From the IMG/VR virus record IMGVR_UViG_3300030329_005017, positions 1 to 64,000 of that record: a stretch of 64,000 nucleotides of DNA; one strand, 5' to 3'. Positions 3,301 to 62,133 of this stretch are shown in pieces. The notes below the pieces were generated by a model. The model saw nothing but the letters and a program-made list of their open reading frames with translations. It searched no databases and was not told the DNA's origin. Every line of letters starts with the position of its first letter. Position 1 is the first letter of the stretch. Source of the DNA: a virus. The position numbers and the translations under genes are program-made.

Positions 3301-6281
3301 GCATACAACTAACGGATCTGACTGGCGGCGACACAAGCGCCGAACAAAAAATTTCTATGCTTATAGAGCAGAATGCCGAGATGGTGAGAACCATGGACGC
3401 TATAACAAAATTAAAAAGAATTATACTTGATGCTTCTCAGGGGGCTGAAATAGCTAGAAGAGTAGAATTAGGGGTAGGTAATATAGATGAGATTGCTGTT
3501 GAAGATGAGGATGGCGGCACTACAACAAGAAAGGTGTTTAGACAGCCAGTATTTTTCTTTTTAGGTTCAGTTTTAGAGGCGTTAAGAATTGCCACTAATA
3601 ATAGAGTAAAGTTCCAGTATTCTGCTATACCTCAAAAAAAGGAAGGCAAGCCTTTTATTATTAATATACCAGAACAATCTGCTACCAGTATTACTTCTCA
3701 GTTTGATCGTGAAATAGAATCTTTAAAGAAAAAGTTAGTTGAGTTAAATGTGGCGGTTGAAGACGAAGCAGAGCAGGTAACTATATTGCAAAATCAAGGT
3801 CAGCAAGAAGTAGAAGCTGCTGTTGAGTTGGAGAAAAAACAAAAAGAATGGGACGATGCTCTTGTACAATATATTATAGACAGAGGTACTAATGTTGCTT
3901 CGTTGGGATATAATACCGCAGGTCAAAAGGCTTATTGGGCTGGTCAGTTTGTGGAAGGCGGAGGTCTTCAATCTCAAGGCGTTTATGGTCCTACTTATAC
4001 TAACCTAAAAGGTAATGTTATTCAAACCCAAGTTCAGTTTCCAACATATCGCTTCTATGAGGGCAAAGGCGGCGAAGGTGGACCTAGTGTCGTAGGATAT
4101 CAAACTACCGGTATATCGGATACTGGTCAGCCCATTAGAGCACCATTTGTTTATAAAATTAAACTTTCACAAGATCATCAAAATTATTATGGTAAGACTA
4201 GTCCTTATGAGAGCATTCCAACCGCGCTGGACAACCTTGGCAGCAGGGGCGACGATGGAAGAGATGAGGGTTTTATGAGATTATGGCGGCCCGAAGATTT
4301 ACAAATGGCGATTACAGCTGCTGAGATGGGCAATGACTGGCATTTTTTATGGCGAAAAAAACCAAGCTTCGGCTTCGCGAAAGATGGCGGCTACCCGTCT
4401 TTTCTGACCGATTCATTTGGCATACGGAGTCCGGGCACGGGCGGGCCCGATTATGGTCTGCAGTACATCAAGCATGGGGGAGATAATGTGTCGGCAAAGG
4501 ATATGAGTCAGTTCATGAAAAAAGACAGTGATACAGTATTCCCTGAGTTTCCTTATTCTAATCCTTATGAAAATAGAACCATAGACCGCCCAAAAGCTTT
4601 GGTACAAAGATTAGTGCAATGGTTAAATTGGTTCCCCGCCGATGGAAATTTAGAATATACTATTTTAGGTAAATCATTACATGAGTTTTATGGCAATAAT
4701 AAAGAAGTTCCATGGGATAACCCTAATACACTTGATTCTGATGAATTGGTAAGTCAGGGATGGTACTATATAGCATGGCCGAATCGTCGTCCAAGAGGTT
4801 TTGAGATGATGAATCTATCTTCACAGAGCACAACAGTTTATGAGCCTTTTTATGTTAGAGGTGTTGTGGTTGATGATTTTATTCAGTTAAATGGCGTTAG
4901 ACCAACAGCAGAAAATCCTGAGCCCTTAGAAGGTGAAACTGGTAGAGAGTTACAAATAAGAAATGCTAGAGTAGCTATGATAAATGAAAGAATAGACAAT
5001 CTAGAAAGACAAAAGAATAATTCTGATGTTAGTACTCAATTTTCTAATTTGCCTATACGCACTACTTATGAAATACCTGTTAAGATTGATACTATAAGGC
5101 AATTTTTAACTTCAGAACCAAACGCTCCTTTACATAACTTATTAAAAAAAGTTCTTGCTTCTACTAGAGAGGTAACTCCATCTATACAGTTATCTATGCG
5201 CCCGTCACCATCAGATAACTCATATATTGATGTCTTTCCTAGTGCTATGAATTATGATGGTGTAATACAAGAAGTATTTACAGAATTTGATATTAATAGA
5301 ATAGATGCATCTGATGAAGGTGGCATCATAGCAGCAGGAAGAAGTATAAATCGAGGTGGCTTAGTCACTTCGGAAAAGGTTATGGTTTGTCAATTTGGTA
5401 CCGGTCAATCTTTGATAGAAAATTTTGGGTTATCTTCTAAAATAGATCCTACTGCTTTTTCTTCTTTTAGATTACCTGCTGTAGTAGGTGGTGCAAGAAT
5501 GAATGTCATAGAAGTATTAAGAACTACTCAAGAAAATGATCCTGTTGCTTTTGCGGGGCTTTTAAATGATTTTAGACAGATATTGGGTGAGGGATTAACT
5601 TCGGGTATGGCTGGATTGAAAAATCTTAAGATAGTAACCGAAGCTGAAGATGGAAGCTTTACTGTTACTGAGCAAGGTAAAAACAATCTTATAAACTTTT
5701 TATTAGCTGAAAATGCGCCGGTTATCTCTAAGGCTGCTACTGGTTTTCTTGAAGATATGATGAGTCAAAATGTAGGGGTTTATAATAAGATGTTATTATT
5801 ACAAAATCAGTTTTTTACTAATTTGGACACAAGTGCCGAGGGATCTATAGGTAATCCAGAATCAAATACAAGATTAGCAGGTAGTAAGTTTTATGGGAAT
5901 GTCTTAAGTACATTCTTAAGGACCGCTACTCTTACTATTCACGGCACTACTGGCTTGAATGTATTCAACTTGGTGTATCTAAAAGGTCTTGTAAGTGGTG
6001 TAGAGGGTTTGTATTTAATTAGTAGCGTTAATGAAAGTATAGCGGCATCTACTTTTACAACTACTTTAGAGTGTAAGTTAGTAGAATATGTTAATAATGA
6101 TGATAAAACTAATCCGTTGGCTTATAGAGGCAACGCTGATCTTAATCGCTTGGCATCTGTTATTGATCAACGTAAGGCTGAAGAAGGTGCAAAAGCAGAG
6201 TTTGGTGTTGGCTATGAAATAGGAGACTTGGATAGATACATCCAAGAGTTTGATGCCAAGTCGGGATTTTTACAAGGCTGA
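318..6281 (+). CDS. Giant baseplate/tail hub-like structural protein
   Basis: 1987 residues, the largest gene here. Two parts look like phage tail hub proteins. Around residues 340-460 is a beta-rich stretch (LTITLPNPELINERFEYSKL, then LIIYGW and ISLSNFQFDFDSVG). Near residues 1880-1940 is a C-terminal block (LTIHGTTGLNVFNLVYLKG, then GLYLISSVNESI and FTTTLECKLVEY) of the kind found in gp27/gpD-type hubs. A charged coiled coil runs at about 1126-1185. No signal peptide or enzyme motif was recognised. It sits between gp53-like and gp55-like genes in a baseplate block, so a structural role is a fair inference; the exact position in the particle is not known. By eye, two stretches (about nt 2025-2130 and 4205-4490) are GC-richer and use different codons from the rest. 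Confidence 0.6.
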   Translation: MTEFNYYGNQRGVTWRQSIRDAATFDEQKTIWMRHNTRAADENMSQYGLRMLQGVTQIIQGDDYVDTGTFGFNLGDADFYSEEYRESIEALPDDFWEDINKNAQATRNFNQFNVQFRNAEQDTGVTPANLSSDSDDDIDPTALVFQTEENLQDDPDANGLSTSPGFDAFFMAADEAAATFEAEQAERNAGAVNNVLEDPGYQKVVTGWNQKIRSSSEDISGLTPFCELYAVFPENDLIYSEDGTKYTAIKNRLYNVRFQGVRSDIKPPLPEGITPNSKVAKIAGDNQSQIQPDSITKNSSNNYEAYSSFKGLPGINDLAVSRGSAAAQNVKYDLTITLPNPELINERFEYSKLMLMNSAFLIIYGWNIRDGAFDADNYPPTIQHGVENNVVVGNGMGGFWSSAIISLSNFQFDFDSVGHLVGKLTFLNNSGIFLGTMTVEPIGNKLLDSLTKPAQSILDRVNNNQNFIWQNGIPWSATQGNEEMVDVTGPNAANNDLLREFFAREGDGGYSSHLDRIFSERHYTDQDAVLALRDKVRQLNELGETFLKKYRQHLLLTIFFRKENNLMADSAEAARAEELAEFNTDYFNYSGGKQDADDFDDHEANMNLDTIPYYSDLIDINYNNLFLSWQAGYFNQDNPNMMFIFMFDDLVDSPVNNIDIGFNYFDFYDLMYRPSDIAGQPPQQEIKFVGGLLSGRGQFVPAAFEEFLVDTPVGTGETSYITNMPPFGVDLQSKIITAFSDPNNVNYRHFSGSRPTIAQNVLDLITSTSVISVPSVVYEDGQAILPVFEKTYSQVMETEPELVLISFEFLNKVESAEGDQWDDSLHRIKFHSQEMLTSLEGLGSDDGIGQWAEHFRDEWNTDTNTLDIVTTDDGAAFFQNHFSKVYNADAISSGGRFVDTKYAILKNGYFVSTHAANRNAKFVDKETADLIVTPDGEDRLYFLNMAPDGVTVEQLAERHEARENIARYVDAGMPTRLMSPEERRIYNSLDWNLAGIQLTDLTGGDTSAEQKISMLIEQNAEMVRTMDAITKLKRIILDASQGAEIARRVELGVGNIDEIAVEDEDGGTTTRKVFRQPVFFFLGSVLEALRIATNNRVKFQYSAIPQKKEGKPFIINIPEQSATSITSQFDREIESLKKKLVELNVAVEDEAEQVTILQNQGQQEVEAAVELEKKQKEWDDALVQYIIDRGTNVASLGYNTAGQKAYWAGQFVEGGGLQSQGVYGPTYTNLKGNVIQTQVQFPTYRFYEGKGGEGGPSVVGYQTTGISDTGQPIRAPFVYKIKLSQDHQNYYGKTSPYESIPTALDNLGSRGDDGRDEGFMRLWRPEDLQMAITAAEMGNDWHFLWRKKPSFGFAKDGGYPSFLTDSFGIRSPGTGGPDYGLQYIKHGGDNVSAKDMSQFMKKDSDTVFPEFPYSNPYENRTIDRPKALVQRLVQWLNWFPADGNLEYTILGKSLHEFYGNNKEVPWDNPNTLDSDELVSQGWYYIAWPNRRPRGFEMMNLSSQSTTVYEPFYVRGVVVDDFIQLNGVRPTAENPEPLEGETGRELQIRNARVAMINERIDNLERQKNNSDVSTQFSNLPIRTTYEIPVKIDTIRQFLTSEPNAPLHNLLKKVLASTREVTPSIQLSMRPSPSDNSYIDVFPSAMNYDGVIQEVFTEFDINRIDASDEGGIIAAGRSINRGGLVTSEKVMVCQFGTGQSLIENFGLSSKIDPTAFSSFRLPAVVGGARMNVIEVLRTTQENDPVAFAGLLNDFRQILGEGLTSGMAGLKNLKIVTEAEDGSFTVTEQGKNNLINFLLAENAPVISKAATGFLEDMMSQNVGVYNKMLLLQNQFFTNLDTSAEGSIGNPESNTRLAGSKFYGNVLSTFLRTATLTIHGTTGLNVFNLVYLKGLVSGVEGLYLISSVNESIAASTFTTTLECKLVEYVNNDDKTNPLAYRGNADLNRLASVIDQRKAEEGAKAEFGVGYEIGDLDRYIQEFDAKSGFLQG

Positions 6282-9236: not shown

Positions 9237-11054
9237 ATGCCAGACTATCAATCAACAAGACAGGCAACTAAACAAACGCCTAATATTAGTTACCTTTCAA
9301 AAGACTTTGATTCTATTAAAGCGGATCTAATAGATTATCTGCAAAGATATTTTCCAGATGACTATAGAGACTTTAATGATGCTTCTGGTGGAATGGCTAT
9401 TGTTGAGCTATTAGCTTATATAGGCGACACTATGTCGTTCTATATTGATAGGCAGGTTAATGAAGGCTTTTTAGATAGAGCAATAGAAGAAAAGAATATT
9501 TTTTCTCTGGCTCAAAACTTAGGATATAAGCCCAAGTTTGCCAGACCTGCTGTAGTGGAGCTATCAGTTAGTGCTACTTTTGATGATGCTACTTCTGGTG
9601 ATTCTTCTTTTGTATTAAAGAAGGGTTCCAAGGTTGTTACTAACTTTGAACCTTCAATAGAGTTTGAAACTTTAAATGATGCTGATTTTGGAAGCGCAAC
9701 CAATAGAGTCACAACAAAAATAGGAAACACTACTCAGTATTCTATCACAAGCCTTTCTGCTATGGCTGGCTCTACGAGAACATTTTCATACAAAGTTGGC
9801 GATGCTATTCCTTTTTTAAAGTTAACTTTACCCGATAGCAATATAACAGAGATAGTTTCTGTAACAGCGTCGGATGGTAAAGAGTATTTTGAAGTTGATA
9901 ATTTAGCACAAGGTCAAATATTTACAGGATATAAAAACACAACTTCTTCTTCGGGCGATGCGGAGTATATTCTTCAATATAAAAAGATACCTTATAGGTT
10001 CACTCGTCATGTATCAAGCAACGGCGATACTTCTATTATTTTTGGTTCGGGGACTACTGACTTACAAGATTCTGAAATAATACCAAACCCCGAAGATTTT
10101 GTATTACCACCCACTCTAAGAGGCTCACCTTCTGGTTTTGCTCCGGCAGTTGTAGATTCTTCTAATTTTTTGAAAACAAGTGGGCTTGGGTATGCGCCAA
10201 GAGATGTTACCATAGATATCAAGTATAGATATGGTGGTGGTAATGCTACCAATGTTGGCCCAAGAACTTTGGACTCATTTGTGTCGAGAGTTATTTCATT
10301 TAAGAATTCTAATTTCTCTACTTCTAATCCTGTAGTAGCTCAAAATGTGTTAGGAACCTTAAGTATTAGTAATGTTGAGCAAGCCATTGGTGGCGCAGAT
10401 AGAGAAGGAAGAACAGCTATTAGACAAAATGCGTTACAATTTTTTAACTCTCAAAATAGAGCAGTTACATTAGAAGATTATCAAGTAAGAGTTTTATCAA
10501 TGCCAACAGAGTTTGGCTCTGTGTTTAGAAGTTATGCAAGAAAAGATCCCAATAACACATTGGGTGTTGAGCTTATTACACTAGCTCGTAATGCTTCTGG
10601 CGTATTAACATTACCTACAGGGGCATTACAAAATAATATAGAAACTTATCTTAGACAGTTCAAATCATTTTCTGATACTGTAAGAATTACAGCTGGTCGT
10701 ATTTGTGATATTGGTATTGAATTTACTATTGTTCCTAACCAAGACTTTAATGTTAATGATGCTTTGTTAGATTGTTTTGTTTTGTTGAAACGTATTTTTA
10801 TTTTAGAGAATACTAACTTTGGTGCTACTATGGTAATTTCTAATTTTACATCTAGATTACAGGCACTGACTAAAGTTAGGTCTGTAGTAGATTTTAAGAT
10901 AACAAGTAAATCTGGTATTATTGATGGTCGCTCATATTCGGCTTATCAATGTAATATACCAGCTAACACTGAAAATGGAATTGTATATTTTCCCGAAGAT
11001 ACTTGTTGGGAACTCAAGTATCCGAATTTTGACATTGTTGGGAGAACCTCATAA
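9237..11054 (+). CDS. gp6: Baseplate wedge protein gp6 (gpJ-like)
   Basis: 605 residues. The start (ISYLSKDFDSIKADLIDYLQ, then RDFNDASGGMAIVELLAYIGD and MSFYIDRQVNEGFLDRA) is the hallmark of T4 gp6/P2 gpJ proteins, which form the dimeric wedge ring of the baseplate. A later block, with EGRTAIRQNALQFFNSQNRA and VTLEDYQVRVLSMP (residues about 385-425), is the conserved gpJ core. The length is close to T4 gp6 (660). A translational overlap (TAATG) couples it to the next gene. Confidence 0.9.
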   Translation: MPDYQSTRQATKQTPNISYLSKDFDSIKADLIDYLQRYFPDDYRDFNDASGGMAIVELLAYIGDTMSFYIDRQVNEGFLDRAIEEKNIFSLAQNLGYKPKFARPAVVELSVSATFDDATSGDSSFVLKKGSKVVTNFEPSIEFETLNDADFGSATNRVTTKIGNTTQYSITSLSAMAGSTRTFSYKVGDAIPFLKLTLPDSNITEIVSVTASDGKEYFEVDNLAQGQIFTGYKNTTSSSGDAEYILQYKKIPYRFTRHVSSNGDTSIIFGSGTTDLQDSEIIPNPEDFVLPPTLRGSPSGFAPAVVDSSNFLKTSGLGYAPRDVTIDIKYRYGGGNATNVGPRTLDSFVSRVISFKNSNFSTSNPVVAQNVLGTLSISNVEQAIGGADREGRTAIRQNALQFFNSQNRAVTLEDYQVRVLSMPTEFGSVFRSYARKDPNNTLGVELITLARNASGVLTLPTGALQNNIETYLRQFKSFSDTVRITAGRICDIGIEFTIVPNQDFNVNDALLDCFVLLKRIFILENTNFGATMVISNFTSRLQALTKVRSVVDFKITSKSGIIDGRSYSAYQCNIPANTENGIVYFPEDTCWELKYPNFDIVGRTS

Positions 11055-43536: not shown

Positions 43537-43712
43537 GTGATAGAATACTAAAACAGGTTTTACATAATGAAGCAGACAATACAATTATGATTACTATCTC
43601 TGATGAAGTTAAGGCTGAAACACTAAAGAAGATTTATACAATGTTGCTTGATGAAGAAATCAAACAGACCGAGCCAGAGGCAAAGGAGACGCCAAGTGGC
43701 AGAAGAAAGTAA
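43533..43712 (+). CDS. Small protein, unknown function
   Basis: 59 residues, start ATG overlapping the gmhA stop by ATGA. The protein reads MSDRILKQVLHNEADN at the start and has an SDEVKAETLKKIYTMLLDEE helix, ending in a basic SGRRK. It is very short and has no recognised domain, but the ATGA coupling and the overlap with the following GTG start argue that it is translated. Confidence 0.5.
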   Translation: MSDRILKQVLHNEADNTIMITISDEVKAETLKKIYTMLLDEEIKQTEPEAKETPSGRRK

Positions 43713-43953
43713 GATTAAAGAATTTCCATTAGATAAAGCCGGCGGCGGCAACACTGTAGTATGGTCGTGTAAGGCTTGTGGGCACAACATTACAGAGCGA
43801 ATGGATGAACAAAATGAGGACAAGTCAAAAGTGCTTCCACTAAATTTAGGTGGCATGATGATTTATGTTTGTCCTAACTGTCGCACCTTTCAAATGCCAG
43901 AAGAAGTTTTTGATGAAGTTTTCAAGAAAGCTAATAGTAGGATAATCACATGA
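43696..43953 (+). CDS. Zinc-ribbon protein
   Basis: About 85 residues from a GTG start at 43696, with AAAGGAG 7 nt upstream; longer in-frame readings overlap the previous gene. Two Cys pairs (CKACGH and CPNCRTF) fit a zinc ribbon of the rubredoxin-like kind. The remaining sequence is acidic. Function unknown; such small zinc proteins often bind nucleic acid or an RNA polymerase subunit. Confidence 0.6.
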   Translation: MAEESKIKEFPLDKAGGGNTVVWSCKACGHNITERMDEQNEDKSKVLPLNLGGMMIYVCPNCRTFQMPEEVFDEVFKKANSRIIT

Positions 43954-44183
43954 ATAAAATAGATGACCTAGAAAGAGCAATGATGGCCAAGTTTGAGAAG
44001 GCCGAAGAAGAAGAGAAGCTTCGCAATATGAGCACAGCAGAAAAGCTTCAGCTGCAAGAAGAAGAGGAGCATGCTAAAATGGTTGAGTCTAGGTTTATTC
44101 AAAAGTTTAGTCCCGAATGGAGAAAGAAGAATAAAAAGAAAAAGAAGATAGCTAAAGCTAGTCGTAAAAGAAATAGAAAATGA
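43950..44183 (+). CDS. Charged coiled-coil protein, unknown function
   Basis: 77 residues: an acidic helical N-terminal part (KAEEEEKLRN, then LQLQEEEEHAKM) followed by a very basic tail (RKKNKKKKKIAKASRKRNRK). The ATGA coupling on both sides makes it part of the operon. No function is recognised; the basic tail could bind nucleic acid or a membrane surface. Confidence 0.5.
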   Translation: MNKIDDLERAMMAKFEKAEEEEKLRNMSTAEKLQLQEEEEHAKMVESRFIQKFSPEWRKKNKKKKKIAKASRKRNRK

Positions 44184-54239: not shown

Positions 54240-54484
54240 TGGATAGATTTACGGTTACGAAAACAAAGCGTTGGGGTAATGCGGACACACAGATTTCAAA
54301 TGTTTATAGTGTAAGCAGAAATAAAGCACGGCGTGATGATGTAATAAAGATAGCTAATGACCTTATTACTAAAGAAGAACTTTATACGAATGAGTCCGTA
54401 GAGTTTGAAGTGCTTTTAACTTATGACTCAGGCAATACTGAATTCATTCATCGTGTAGAAAAAGAAGGAAAGAAAAGCTTATAA
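54239..54484 (+). CDS. Small protein, unknown function
   Basis: 81 residues. Begins FTVTKTKRWGNADTQ and has an alternating basic and acidic pattern with a C-terminal strand FEVLLTYDSGNTEFIHRV. It starts on the helicase stop codon and ends on the ATG of the next gene. No family recognised. Confidence 0.55.
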   Translation: MDRFTVTKTKRWGNADTQISNVYSVSRNKARRDDVIKIANDLITKEELYTNESVEFEVLLTYDSGNTEFIHRVEKEGKKSL

Positions 54485-54705
54485 TGCCTGAATACACTTG
54501 GGTATGTGACGGCTGCACTTATCATTTAATTGAGAGGATGAGCATAAAGGCATACGACCCTAAAAAGAAAAAGTATTGTCCAAACTGCGGCACAGTAGTG
54601 CGAAGAAAGATTGAACAAGTAGGTGTGAAATTTGGAAAAGGATTTTATAGAGATGGTTACGAGTCGGCTAAGAATGTAAGAACACAAACAGATGGAGACA
54701 GTTGA
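54484..54705 (+). CDS. FmdB-like zinc-ribbon protein
   Basis: 73 residues. N-terminal MPEYTWVCDGC, then CPNCGTVVRRKI supply the four cysteines of a zinc ribbon, and the ending VGVKFGKGFYRDGY matches the tail of FmdB-type regulatory proteins. Function in phages is not known; these small zinc proteins may act on transcription. Its stop overlaps the RNR start. Confidence 0.66.
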   Translation: MPEYTWVCDGCTYHLIERMSIKAYDPKKKKYCPNCGTVVRRKIEQVGVKFGKGFYRDGYESAKNVRTQTDGDS

Positions 54706-57629: not shown

Positions 57630-60600
57630 ATGTCTAAAGTAGATACATTTACACACTTACATCTTCACACAACTTATTCAATGTTGGACGGTGTTGGAAC
57701 TGCGAAGGACTATGCTGCTCGTTGTAAGGAGTTAGGTATGCAGGCAGCCGCAGTAACAGATCACGGAACTATGGCAGGACTTTTTGAGTTCTACAACGAA
57801 ATGACTAAGGTTGGCGTAAAACCTATTTTAGGCAACGAAATGTATTGTGTTGAGGATATGCATCAGCGTGGGCTAACAGATGAAGAGAAAGACGGGCTGA
57901 CAGCAACTGAGGTAAGAGAAAAGAATAAGTTGAGGTTGAGGTCACCACATCTTCTGCTATTAGCTGAGAATGATATTGGGTTGAGAAACCTATTTCGTTT
58001 GAATTATTATGCGAATACAGAAGGTTACTATGGTAAGCCGAGAATAGATCTCGATCTGTTGGAGAAACATTCTGAAGGAATTATTGCTACAACAACTTGC
58101 GTTATTAGCAATATGGCGAGGTATTTACAAGCAAAACAAACTGACAAAATGACAGCTTGGTTTGACAGAATGTTGGAAATCTTTGGTGAAGATAATCTTT
58201 TTATTGAGTTACATCCGCATGACTTGGATATACAAAAAGATTATAATGTAGCATTGATAGAGTTGTTTCGTAAGAAGTATGAGAATGTGAAATGTGTATT
58301 AGCTAATGATGTTCATGTTGTTTTGAAAGAGCATGACAAAGTGCATGATTTCCTTTGGAATATTTCAACAGATGGTAAGTTTGATGAGGCAGGTGTGCAT
58401 ACTCTTTATCTTGCTAGCGAAGAAGAGATGCGAGGGTTGTGGTATGATAATGGTTATGGCGACCTTATTGCTGATGAGTATCTAGAAGAAGCTATCGAAA
58501 GCACCAAACACATTGCTTCAAGGTGTAATGCTAAACTTGACATGGAAACCTTGAAGGAGCCTAAGTTTGAAACGCCTGATGGTTTTGCGGATAACAGAGA
58601 ATACATAGTTCATCAGTTGAAGAAGGGAATGCAAGAGAAGTTAGAGGCAGGGCAAATAAAAGAAGAAGACATTCCCGAATATACAACAGCATTGAAGAAA
58701 GAGTTAGACCTTGTAGCGGATAAGGGATACATAGACTATTTCCTTATCACACAAGACTTTTGTAAGTTTGCTTATGATAATGACATTCTAATGTCGCCTG
58801 GAAGAGGTAGTGCGAGTGGAGCGTTATTGTGTTGGCTGTTAGGCATAACTCATTTGAATCCTATAAAGTATAACCTCTTCTTTGAGAGGTTTATGAACCC
58901 AACAAGAATCAAGGAGCCTGACATTGATAACGACTTTTCGGACAAAGATAGAGAAAAGGTTAAAGAGTATGTCGCGAGTAAATGGGGTGATGCTAACATT
59001 GCTTCTGTTTGTGCTTATGCCCGTTACTCCGTTAATACTTTGTTTCGTGATTTGGCGAAGCATAAAGGGTTACCGTTCCAAGAATCAAATAAGATCGCCA
59101 AAACCATTTCGGGGCACATCTCTCTGAATAAAGACATGGCATCGTTCAGTGAAATAATGAATGAGAAGCCAGAGGTAAGAAAGTTTGTTCAAGAGATGGA
59201 TAAGGATGAAGCTACGGACTTTGTGCAAACCATTGATGTGTTGAATGGAAATGCGCGAAACCAAACCATTGCTGCAGGCGGTGTTATTATCTCATCTAGT
59301 CCATTGTATGATATGATGCCATTGAGAAAGACCAAGGATGATGTATTGGTTACAGAATGGCAGATAGATGAACTGGCAAAGATGAAGTTTCTTAAGATTG
59401 ATATGTTGGGTATTTCTACTTTGTCGGTGTTGAAGGATGTGATGGATAAGGTAGGAATGAACATTGCTGACTTGTATAATATGCCGTTGGATAGAGAAGC
59501 ACTATCTGAAGAAGAACAGGTTTATTATGATAAGGCGTTTCAGTTATTGTGTGAAGGTCAAACCTTTGGTGTGTTTCAGTTTGCAGGCTCAAACATTACG
59601 AGAGTGTTGCAGCAATCTAAACCAAAAACTATTGAAGACATCGCAGCTGTAAATGCCATCTATCGTCCTGGCGTTATCAAGATGGGTGCGTTGGATGCTT
59701 TTATTCGCCGTAAGAATGGTCAAGAAGATCCGACCAATGACCATCACCCAATGTTTGAAGAGATACTAGAACCGACTCAAGGTATTATGATTTACCAAGA
59801 GCAGTTTATTCAAATGTTCAGTATGTTGGGTTTGAGTTTTGGTGAAGGTGACATTCTTCGTAAGACAGCCGAGTCATTGGATAAGAAGAAGTGTAATGCT
59901 TATTTAGAAGAACACTTGTATAGTAGCCCAGAAAAACTCATTCTATCATTAGAGGAAACCAAAAAGGTTGCTGATAAGTTGATAGAAAACGCAGGCTATC
60001 TATTCAATAAGTCACACGCTATTAGTTATAGTATCTTGGCGTATTGGACTAGTTACTTCAAGGCAAAGTATCCGGCAGAGTTTATTGAGGTGTTGTGCAA
60101 CCATTCTGCTGATGACCATGATGAAGTAGCACTATGTCTTTCGATGGCTCGCGACTTGTTGGATAACCCAGAAGTTACGTTGGGTAACATCAATAACTTC
60201 TCTTTGGACTTCAAGGTCACCAAGGATGAGTTCATGGTAGGGTTGTTGGGAGTAAAAGGTCTGGGCAAAACTGTATTGAATAAGATAAAGAATCACATGC
60301 CAAGTGCAGGTGGTTGGCTTGACTATACAGAGTTTTTACAAGATAACTTTCAACATAAGATGATTTCAGCAAATGATTTGAAAATGTTGATCACATTAGG
60401 GTTGTTTGATGGACTTGTTTTCTGTGGGAGAGAGTATACTAGAAAGGCATTGGTTGACATTACGGACATCTATTATAACTTGTTCAACCTACCAAAGAGA
60501 GACTTGAAGAAGGTTTGTGAGAAAGTGTTTGATGATGATAGTCTAACCTTTAAAGATTTGGTTCGCAGTGATAGACTTGAATCATTGATAAAGGTATTCA

Positions 60601-61028
60601 ATATTAATACAGAAGAAGAGTATGGCGAAGTTGAGGTAATCACTAATGAGTTGGAGTATGTAGGTTTTAGAGTTACGGAAAACAGAGAAAGATGGGAGCA
60701 CATGACTTCTGTTGTAAAAGACATGGGACTTCCTCACATTTCTGATTTTGATGATGACGCTGAAAGCCATGACCATGTATGGTTGACAGTAAGAACTGTA
60801 GAAATGTTAAAGACAAAGAAGGGTAAGCCATATGCAAATGTGAGAGCGGATGATGGTAGTAGTTTTAGAGTGTGGCATAATAAGCTACAGTATCATACAG
60901 ACGATTTGATTCCGGGTAAAGTTTTAATTGTCAAGTTGAATGCTGATACCTTTGGGCGAAGTATAGCTTGGGATCGTGGCGCTCTTGTGGGTGAAGAAAA
61001 GATATTAGAGCTACGACAACAGTTATAG
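57630..61028 (+). CDS. dnaE: DNA polymerase III alpha subunit (family C)
   Basis: 1132 residues, close to the normal DnaE length. PHP domain at 1-280: THLHLHTTYSMLDGV, AAVTDHGTMAGL, ELHPHDLD and LANDVHVVLKEHDKVHDFL, with metal-binding histidines largely kept, so it may proofread. Polymerase core: MSPGRGSASGALLCW, PDIDNDF with catalytic D433 and D435, FLKIDMLGISTLSVL with the third, D591, and QTFGVFQFAGSNITRVLQQS. The C-terminus has a HhH (LLGVKGLGKTVLNKI) and an OB-fold (VWLTVRTVEMLKTKKGK). It replicates the genome in place of a T4-type family B polymerase. Confidence 0.92.
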   Translation: MSKVDTFTHLHLHTTYSMLDGVGTAKDYAARCKELGMQAAAVTDHGTMAGLFEFYNEMTKVGVKPILGNEMYCVEDMHQRGLTDEEKDGLTATEVREKNKLRLRSPHLLLLAENDIGLRNLFRLNYYANTEGYYGKPRIDLDLLEKHSEGIIATTTCVISNMARYLQAKQTDKMTAWFDRMLEIFGEDNLFIELHPHDLDIQKDYNVALIELFRKKYENVKCVLANDVHVVLKEHDKVHDFLWNISTDGKFDEAGVHTLYLASEEEMRGLWYDNGYGDLIADEYLEEAIESTKHIASRCNAKLDMETLKEPKFETPDGFADNREYIVHQLKKGMQEKLEAGQIKEEDIPEYTTALKKELDLVADKGYIDYFLITQDFCKFAYDNDILMSPGRGSASGALLCWLLGITHLNPIKYNLFFERFMNPTRIKEPDIDNDFSDKDREKVKEYVASKWGDANIASVCAYARYSVNTLFRDLAKHKGLPFQESNKIAKTISGHISLNKDMASFSEIMNEKPEVRKFVQEMDKDEATDFVQTIDVLNGNARNQTIAAGGVIISSSPLYDMMPLRKTKDDVLVTEWQIDELAKMKFLKIDMLGISTLSVLKDVMDKVGMNIADLYNMPLDREALSEEEQVYYDKAFQLLCEGQTFGVFQFAGSNITRVLQQSKPKTIEDIAAVNAIYRPGVIKMGALDAFIRRKNGQEDPTNDHHPMFEEILEPTQGIMIYQEQFIQMFSMLGLSFGEGDILRKTAESLDKKKCNAYLEEHLYSSPEKLILSLEETKKVADKLIENAGYLFNKSHAISYSILAYWTSYFKAKYPAEFIEVLCNHSADDHDEVALCLSMARDLLDNPEVTLGNINNFSLDFKVTKDEFMVGLLGVKGLGKTVLNKIKNHMPSAGGWLDYTEFLQDNFQHKMISANDLKMLITLGLFDGLVFCGREYTRKALVDITDIYYNLFNLPKRDLKKVCEKVFDDDSLTFKDLVRSDRLESLIKVFNINTEEEYGEVEVITNELEYVGFRVTENRERWEHMTSVVKDMGLPHISDFDDDAESHDHVWLTVRTVEMLKTKKGKPYANVRADDGSSFRVWHNKLQYHTDDLIPGKVLIVKLNADTFGRSIAWDRGALVGEEKILELRQQL

Positions 61029-61054
61029 GTTGATATTTATTTGGGAGAGTGTAG

Positions 61055-61639
61055 ATGAAAATTGATTCGCGCAAGTGGACTAGTGAGCACATAGAAAGTA
61101 ATGTTGGTAAACTTGGTGCGCAAATTATTGTCAATGAGCTTATTAAGAATGAATGGAAGATGTGGTTTATTGGAAACACTACTGGCAATTCTTTATATAC
61201 AGTAGATTTGTCAAGTGGAGAGAAGGTTATTGTTGGGTTCACTGATGAGAATGTTGCTGCCAACTATGTGAATAAAAAAGAGATTAGAAAAGGACTGGTC
61301 AAGAACTTTGGTAAAAAGTTGGTATTGGTTCAGTTTTCTATTCTTAAAATAACTGAGATAATGCAACACAATATGCAAGTGGTTAATAAAGTAGGACCGG
61401 GATTATTGTCTCAAAGTTTAGCTCCTTCTCCTATTAATACCTTGATTGTCAATCCGTCTGGTGCTGATTCTTTTATTCCACTTCATGCACCATTATTGGC
61501 AGGCAAACTTTTAGAGGAAGGATATATAGAGAAAGATAGTTTGGGAGAAGAGCCAGTCTTTTCTTTATATGAACTAGATAAAGAAGATGATAGATATTAT
61601 CCGGCAGATGAAGAGGATGAAGAGATAGAAATACCATAA
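61055..61639 (+). CDS. SseB-like domain protein
   Basis: 194 residues. The stretch TVDLSSGEKVIVGFTDENVA and a later INTLIVNPSGADSFIPL block resemble the two repeats of SseB N-terminal-like domains, which read a strand, FTs-x-e-x-A, then a VNP end. The C-terminus is acidic (DKEDDRYYPADEEDEE). Role unknown; SseB-like proteins elsewhere act in secretion and stress. It follows the polymerase gene by 26 nt. Confidence 0.48.
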   Translation: MKIDSRKWTSEHIESNVGKLGAQIIVNELIKNEWKMWFIGNTTGNSLYTVDLSSGEKVIVGFTDENVAANYVNKKEIRKGLVKNFGKKLVLVQFSILKITEIMQHNMQVVNKVGPGLLSQSLAPSPINTLIVNPSGADSFIPLHAPLLAGKLLEEGYIEKDSLGEEPVFSLYELDKEDDRYYPADEEDEEIEIP

Positions 61640-61643
61640 ATAA

Positions 61644-61735
61644 ACGGGGCTATTCAAACAAGCATCAAGCAGTTGGTATCTCCCATAAAGGTTTTTCGCC
61701 AACACTATTATGCAAATGCTCTTGAATAGCCCCGT
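61644..61735 (+). ncRNA. Structured intergenic RNA candidate
   Basis: In the 113-nt gap between two genes. A perfect 14-bp inverted repeat, ACGGGGCTATTCAA at 61644-61657 and TTGAATAGCCCCGT at 61722-61735, encloses about 64 nt. Inside, AGCAT (61661-61665) pairs with ATGCT (61716-61720), and GTTGG (61672-61676) with CCAAC (61699-61703), giving three nested stems on one long arm. No T-run follows either side, so it is not an ordinary terminator. It could be a regulatory leader, a small RNA, an RNase III site or a DNA cruciform. Confidence 0.6.
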
Positions 61736-61752
61736 CATTATAAGAAAGGGTT

Positions 61753-62133
61753 ATGATGACAGAACAAGAAGAAACAATTCTAGACGTAGATGAAAAAGAA
61801 CTTGCAGTTCGCCTAGATCTTTTACGTGGCAAGCTACTGGAAGCATCTAAGGCATTAAGGGCGCAGGTTCCTAGCACCTTACCTGATCAAGCTCTTACGG
61901 AAAATGGATTCTTTAAGCAGTGGGTTATATGCAATACGGTTTATGATTCATCTTTAAAAGACACAAACAATGAAGATTTTAATAGAATGTTGTATTATAT
62001 GTTTGAAGAAAACGGCGGCAATGTTGCCAGGCTTCTTAATCAATATGACTTAAAGGTAGATCTTAATAGTGCAGGACAGTTAGAAAACATTGAGCTTATA
62101 ATACTGGAGACGGAGATAACCGATGCGGAGTAA
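61753..62133 (+). CDS. Unknown helical protein
   Basis: 126 residues from the ATG at 61753 (an ATG pair). N-terminal acidic helix with RLDLLRGKLLEASKALRAQV, a central NGFFKQWVICNTVYDSS motif and an acidic end. The gene directly follows the structured RNA and overlaps the next one by 11 nt. No family recognised. Confidence 0.55.
   Translation: MMTEQEETILDVDEKELAVRLDLLRGKLLEASKALRAQVPSTLPDQALTENGFFKQWVICNTVYDSSLKDTNNEDFNRMLYYMFEENGGNVARLLNQYDLKVDLNSAGQLENIELIILETEITDAE

Follow-up and report, generated by a model that had tools for sequence, protein, structure and literature searches.

A structured RNA family between two conserved gene families in uncultured, mostly marine phages: probable cis-regulatory setting and candidate recognition loop

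In the early region of phage T7, RNase III processing hairpins separate the messages. In phage T4, the gene 43 operator hairpin lies about 40 bases 5' of the start codon. The T4/RB69 operators are hairpins of 16–18 bases with a UAAC loop; they precede the polymerase gene, and part of their sequence overlaps the ribosome site of that gene (PMC3014915). C-rich loops that target Shine-Dalgarno sequences have been described in small RNAs of staphylococci and Listeria (PMC2837412, PMC3961350, PMC4132741).

The RNA described here resembles the T4/RB69 gene 43 operator in being a phage RNA hairpin 5' of a start codon, in a replication gene region, with a conserved loop on a stem. It differs in its size (about 90 nt against 16–18 bases), in having three helices and a UCUCCC loop instead of UAAC, and in its place after a DnaE-type polymerase or dUTPase-like gene and before a gene for a 126-aa protein; the polymerase families are unrelated. 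The T4 gene 43 operator is the nearest functional parallel of this RNA, not a relative.

The analysed stretch of 64,000 nt (the window) comprises positions 1–64,000 of the 68.9-kb IMG/VR virus record IMGVR_UViG_3300030329_005017. Its gene set is of myovirus type and includes baseplate wedge, UvsX, DnaB-like helicase, ribonucleotide reductase, thymidylate synthase and DnaE-type polymerase. The locus is read entirely from the plus strand, in the order DnaE gene, 194-aa gene, RNA, 126-aa gene, 133-aa gene (Table 1). A tRNA/tmRNA search returned none. Two inter-ORF gaps were seen at 43537–44179 (643 nt) and 54240–54701 (462 nt), the genome being compact in the remainder of the window.

The original prediction described a perfect 14-bp outer helix enclosing 64 nt with two nested helices, lacking a T-run and followed closely by a gene. 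Re-examination of the sequence bore out each of these points. The arms of the outer helix P1 are complementary at 14 of 14 positions with 64 nt between them, and P1 encloses two helical regions (AGCAU/AUGCU with GCA/UGC, and GUUGG/CCAAC). There is no T-run on either side, and the 126-aa gene starts 17 nt past the hairpin, which thus stands in a leader near a ribosome site in the manner of a gp43-type operator; the distance from P1 to the start codon is similarly short in relatives. Nowhere else in the window does a spaced inverted repeat reach 14 bp or more free of mismatches, and no further copy of the RNA was found within the contig. The minimum free energy of the 92-nt stretch was −36.5 kcal/mol, compared with −16.5 ± 3.1 kcal/mol for dinucleotide shuffles (z −6.4, 0/200).

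Table 1. Positions of the RNA, its parts and the adjoining genes and signals in the window
Feature	Position	Strand	Basis or remark
DnaE-type DNA polymerase gene	57630..61028	+	Context; no linkage to RNA in group B
Conserved TTGATATTTATT box, 5' of the RNA's transcript; putative promoter or control site	61030..61041	+	Sequence conservation
194-aa gene	61055..61639	+	Directly 5' of RNA in each member whose locus extends there
Entire RNA element, P1 to P1	61644..61735	+	Fold and shuffles; model R2 match 61647–61732, 72.7 bits, this copy being in the R2 training set
P1 5' arm ACGGGGCTATTCAA	61644..61657	+	Inverted repeat; covariation
P2 5' side AGCAT-CAA-GCA, two short helices flanking a small internal loop	61661..61671	+	Fold; covariation
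P3 5' arm GTTGG	61672..61676	+	Fold; covariation
Apical-loop motif UCUCCC, near-invariant	61679..61684	+	UCUC(C/U)C then purine in 20/20 aligned members
P3 3' arm CCAAC	61699..61703	+	Fold; covariation
3'-side bulge ACTATTA, A/U-rich	61704..61710	+	Length 5–7 nt in all members
P2 3' side TGC-AA-ATGCT	61711..61720	+	Fold; covariation
P1 3' arm TTGAATAGCCCCGT	61722..61735	+	Inverted repeat; covariation
Likely Shine-Dalgarno AAAGGG of the 126-aa gene	61745..61750	+	Sequence; outside hairpin
126-aa gene	61753..62133	+	Directly 3' of RNA in every member seen

Searches of IMG/VR gave a family of 20 distinct members including the window, all from uncultured, mostly marine phages and all sited between the same two gene families. 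A search with DnaE returned 23 loci, and in the 17 that continue past DnaE the order of 194-aa-like gene, 103–126-nt gap and 126-aa-like gene was retained. Model R2 recognised the RNA in every searched locus of these 17 except L015. Five loci (L051, L053, L069, L073 and L074) were added via searches with the two neighbour genes. Four more (L122 and L124–L126) came from a search with the RNA motif only, and here again the RNA lay directly 5' of a 126-aa-like gene. A final profile search found no further members, and confident copies occurred once per contig. A looser RNA pattern gave 44 stretches; those outside the known place were judged to be chance, none having the three-helix fold.

The element measures about 80–95 nt across the family. 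The RNA sequences of L004 and L003 are identical, as are those of L014 and L013, and in L013 and L069 the 5' arm of P1 overlaps the end of the upstream gene. In group B (L051, L053, L073 and L124) the gene before the 194-aa gene resembles a dUTPase/MazG-type gene instead of DnaE, as judged from weak family scores. Since the upstream gene thus switches, the tight linkage of the RNA is to its two direct neighbours. L051 has a gap of 242 nt, in which another strong hairpin (GGCCGATTAA...TTAATCGGCC), at 5741–5880, precedes the RNA. In L015 the same gap, at 10018–10121, holds a diverged relative with a similar multi-helix fold and the loop ACUCCC, which went undetected by the model; L015 was excluded from the counts.

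Two gene families, 194-aa-like and 126-aa-like, accompany the RNA across members. Neither protein of the window had a convincing match in PHROGs, Pfam or NCBIfam, and an RNA-binding fold was not recognisable in either. The AlphaFold predictions for the two neighbours were confident (mean pLDDT 86 and 85); no significant structural match was found for the 126-aa protein in PDB and BFVD, or for the 194-aa protein in BFVD, the only database with which it was compared.

According to the original prediction, a stem of this kind is usually kept for a function, and covariation in related phages was named as a check, with lack of conserved pairing counting against it. We ran this check and observed the opposite: the pairing is conserved in related phages, which strongly supports the idea that it is kept for a function. 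In alignment A7, which was built with the structure in view and so favours it, 93.6% of cells paired under the named structure, compared with 75.7 ± 1.1% after shuffling (0/500 shuffles as high), and sliding the partner by 1–3 columns reduced this to 32–44%. Two-sided changes were found in 22 of the 27 pairs, amounting to 112 cells against 36.4 ± 6.0 in shuffled alignments, and the covariation score was 0.600 compared with 0.252 (shuffled) and at most 0.149 (slid). RNAalifold, run on the same alignment with the structure not supplied, recovered the three helices. When mapped onto a tree built from both flanking proteins, the pairs require at least 48 replacements of one Watson-Crick pair by another. 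Independently of A7, the single-sequence fold of each member was better than all of 100 shuffles.

For A7, the 20 distinct members were split into elements and N-padded per element, and the rows were checked against their source. It superseded an earlier automatic model (R1), which recovered no more than 13 pairs, MAFFT having misaligned the inner helices.

Compensatory change beyond the shuffled and slid controls is what is asked of an evolutionarily conserved structured RNA. The members have in common three stacked helices, a 3'-side bulge of 5–7 nt and a near-invariant apical UCUC(C/U)C, and it is the shape, not the sequence, that is retained across about 20 distinct related viruses. The hairpin is genuine, and it belongs to a structured RNA family.

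The minus strand of the window copy folds slightly better (−39.7 kcal/mol), so the strand must be decided from the relatives, and these favour plus. The plus strand gave the more stable fold in 14 of 20 members. Across members, the plus (gene) strand has 39 G-U pairs compared with 3 A-C mismatches; the 39 would themselves be mismatches if the other strand were read, which shows that the functional strand is the transcript of the genes. G-U pairs are thus tolerated on one strand only, the plus strand. These counts also bear on a DNA-level role, in which the stretch would act as single-stranded DNA or a cruciform in a replication origin, primase or packaging site. A location in the replication region and one confident copy per contig would suit such a role, but the 39:3 excess fits RNA and not a cruciform, and we consider a DNA-level role highly improbable.

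The helices drift among members, P3 for example being GUUGG/CCAAC, GCUGA/UCAGC, UUAGC/GCUAA or AUGAU/AUCAU, whereas the unpaired apical motif UCUC(C/U)C, with a purine after it, is kept in all 20 members and the bulge after P3 stays A/U-rich. A near-invariant loop and a conserved bulge on drifting helices form the pattern that would be expected of a recognition site presented on a scaffold.

This pattern can be set against RNase III processing, by which the element, or a hairpin that stabilises mRNA, would part the upstream and downstream messages. A long near-perfect helix in an intercistronic gap is in keeping with it, as with the T7 hairpins, which likewise lie between cistrons of a polycistronic phage message, and drift of the helices with pairing kept suits a double-strand-specific enzyme. 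Such an enzyme would presumably not require a near-invariant loop and a conserved bulge 30 nt from P1, however, and internal loops break P1 and P2 among the members, leaving only 9–18 bp of uninterrupted duplex. In contrast to the T7 hairpins, loop and bulge are conserved here in sequence and cleavage is hypothetical. We regard RNase III processing or stabilisation as quite unlikely. The functions put forward in the original prediction (early regulatory leader, RNase III site, small antisense or protein-binding RNA) were conjectures. The near-invariant loop, the conserved bulge and the constant location agree better with a cis element that binds a protein or other ligand than with an RNase III site alone. 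Specific antisense pairing with the flanking translation starts found no support from co-variation.

The sequence just after P1 differs among members. A T-rich tract (six or more T among the 8 nt that follow P1) is present in 11 of 20, whereas the T-run is absent from the window and from L002, L003, L005, L006, L013, L051, L073 and L122. Since the window's close group lacks the tract as well, termination can at best be a property of certain lineages, and the tract hints that the role is a different one, or is supplemented, in the roughly half of the members that have it. The tracts would be accounted for if the element were an intrinsic terminator or attenuator that separates the DnaE/194-aa unit from the 126-aa unit and whose conserved interior decides on termination. 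Against it stand the T-less members, the interior, which greatly exceeds the usual length of a terminator loop, and the nearness of a start codon, which would call for regulated read-through. As an explanation for the family, termination seems very unlikely.

It is also possible, though unlikely, that the element acts in trans as a small RNA, processed from the mRNA or ended at the T-tract, with the apical UCUCCC as a seed for ribosome sites containing GGGAGA or GGAGA. The loop is unpaired and nearly invariant, as would suit a seed, and the T-tract of the 11 members would supply a 3' end. GGAGA occurs in 13 of 56 windows at the ribosome sites of this phage (1.1 expected), and GGGAGA lies 12 nt 5' of its 194-aa gene. 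RNAIII, RsaA and LhrC likewise have a C-rich loop that is unpaired and complements purine-rich sequences resembling a Shine-Dalgarno; these are separate transcripts with shown targets, whereas the RNA described here is embedded between two genes and known from sequence alone.

Predicted loop–target energies were no better within a phage than between phages (permutation fractions 0.96 and 0.41), the targets being the two flanking genes only, so that the loop–target co-evolution looked for was not found with these genes. In group B, GGGAGA is absent before the 194-aa gene. The preference for GGAGA is shared by the Pelagibacter phage HTVC008M (7/9), and we therefore took the enrichment as a weak sign of RNA targets. 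A constant place between two genes would, moreover, be needless for a free small RNA. We rank the trans-acting reading second, directly after a cis-acting element, and RNase III processing, termination and a DNA-level role as less well supported. At the ribosome sites of group-A loci and of the genes in the window, the base after GGAG is A in about 72% of cases, and GGAGG is rare; this preference is similar in HTVC008M and different in mixed control contigs.

Upstream of the RNA, a TTGATATTTATT-like box was found in nearly all members. It precedes the 194-aa gene in the window's (DnaE) group. In group B, an exact or slightly altered copy lies before the RNA itself, about 12–20 nt 5' of P1 (for example at about 5538 in L073 and about 2569 in L124); L051 is an exception, with the box more than 100 nt ahead of P1. 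As both arrangements place the box 5' of the RNA and on the same strand, the transcript of the RNA may have its promoter or a control site there. A role as a general phage promoter was rejected, as the window holds one exact copy only.

With just under an even chance, in our judgement, the RNA is a cis-acting intercistronic element whose loop and bulge are bound by a protein or other ligand and which controls the downstream 126-aa gene. Within the polycistronic mRNA, the RNA would fold into a stack of three helices, with the UCUC(C/U)C apical loop and the 3'-side bulge exposed. Loop and bulge together would be recognised by a protein, perhaps a flanking gene product or a replication or host protein, or by another ligand, and binding or its loss would tune the translation or survival of the 126-aa cistron separately from the upstream cistrons. 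The element would be placed between a terminating and an initiating ribosome, the ribosome site following about 10 nt past the outer helix. In favour of a cis-acting element, we counted the covariation, the strand asymmetry, the near-invariant loop and conserved bulge on drifting helices, and the single confident copy per contig. We also counted that every member sits between the same pair of gene families though the next upstream gene changes, and that the scan with the RNA motif only returned to the same downstream gene. Against it, we counted that neither flanking protein shows a recognisable RNA-binding fold or a significant structural match, that T-tracts follow P1 in about half of the members, and that the hairpin leaves the Shine-Dalgarno sequence uncovered, so that a route from binding to translation is not evident. 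The fixed place can also stem from conserved gene order within one phage lineage. The loop of the T4/RB69 type before a polymerase gene is not found either: the RNA has UCUC(C/U)C and follows DnaE or, in group B, is not adjacent to it.

The original prediction had recognised no known riboswitch class, and Rfam agrees with this, since release 15 gave no match at the gathering threshold in the window or in five relatives. The highest score below threshold, 17.2 against 35 bits (E 0.86), was for SECIS_1 on the opposite strand and was taken as chance. Searches of named phages by DNA and by both flanking proteins found no real match, DnaE itself being only about 30–32% identical to those of named phages, and the 194-aa profile and one RNA pattern, when run against the genomes of bacteria and archaea, found neither the RNA nor its genes. 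A literature search, which was not exhaustive and left most subscription journals and preprints outside, did not find a description of the RNA. It is apparently undescribed to date, and we rate it as a new family of RNA whose general kind, an intercistronic and probably cis-regulatory RNA, is already known, and not as a new principle.

With a search model in hand, a defined location, an unpaired motif that hardly varies and two companion genes, the family lends itself to the immediate design of binding and reporter tests. It is possible, though in our estimate somewhat short of evenly balanced, that it is a new class of RNA regulating a replication-region operon in uncultured marine myovirus-type phages, in which the loop and bulge would be a putative site for a phage or host protein or a small metabolite, and which would control a conserved gene pair with its own upstream control box. 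If the operator reading is true, RNA-level control in phage replication-gene regions, as known from T4, would extend to a lineage with an unrelated polymerase.
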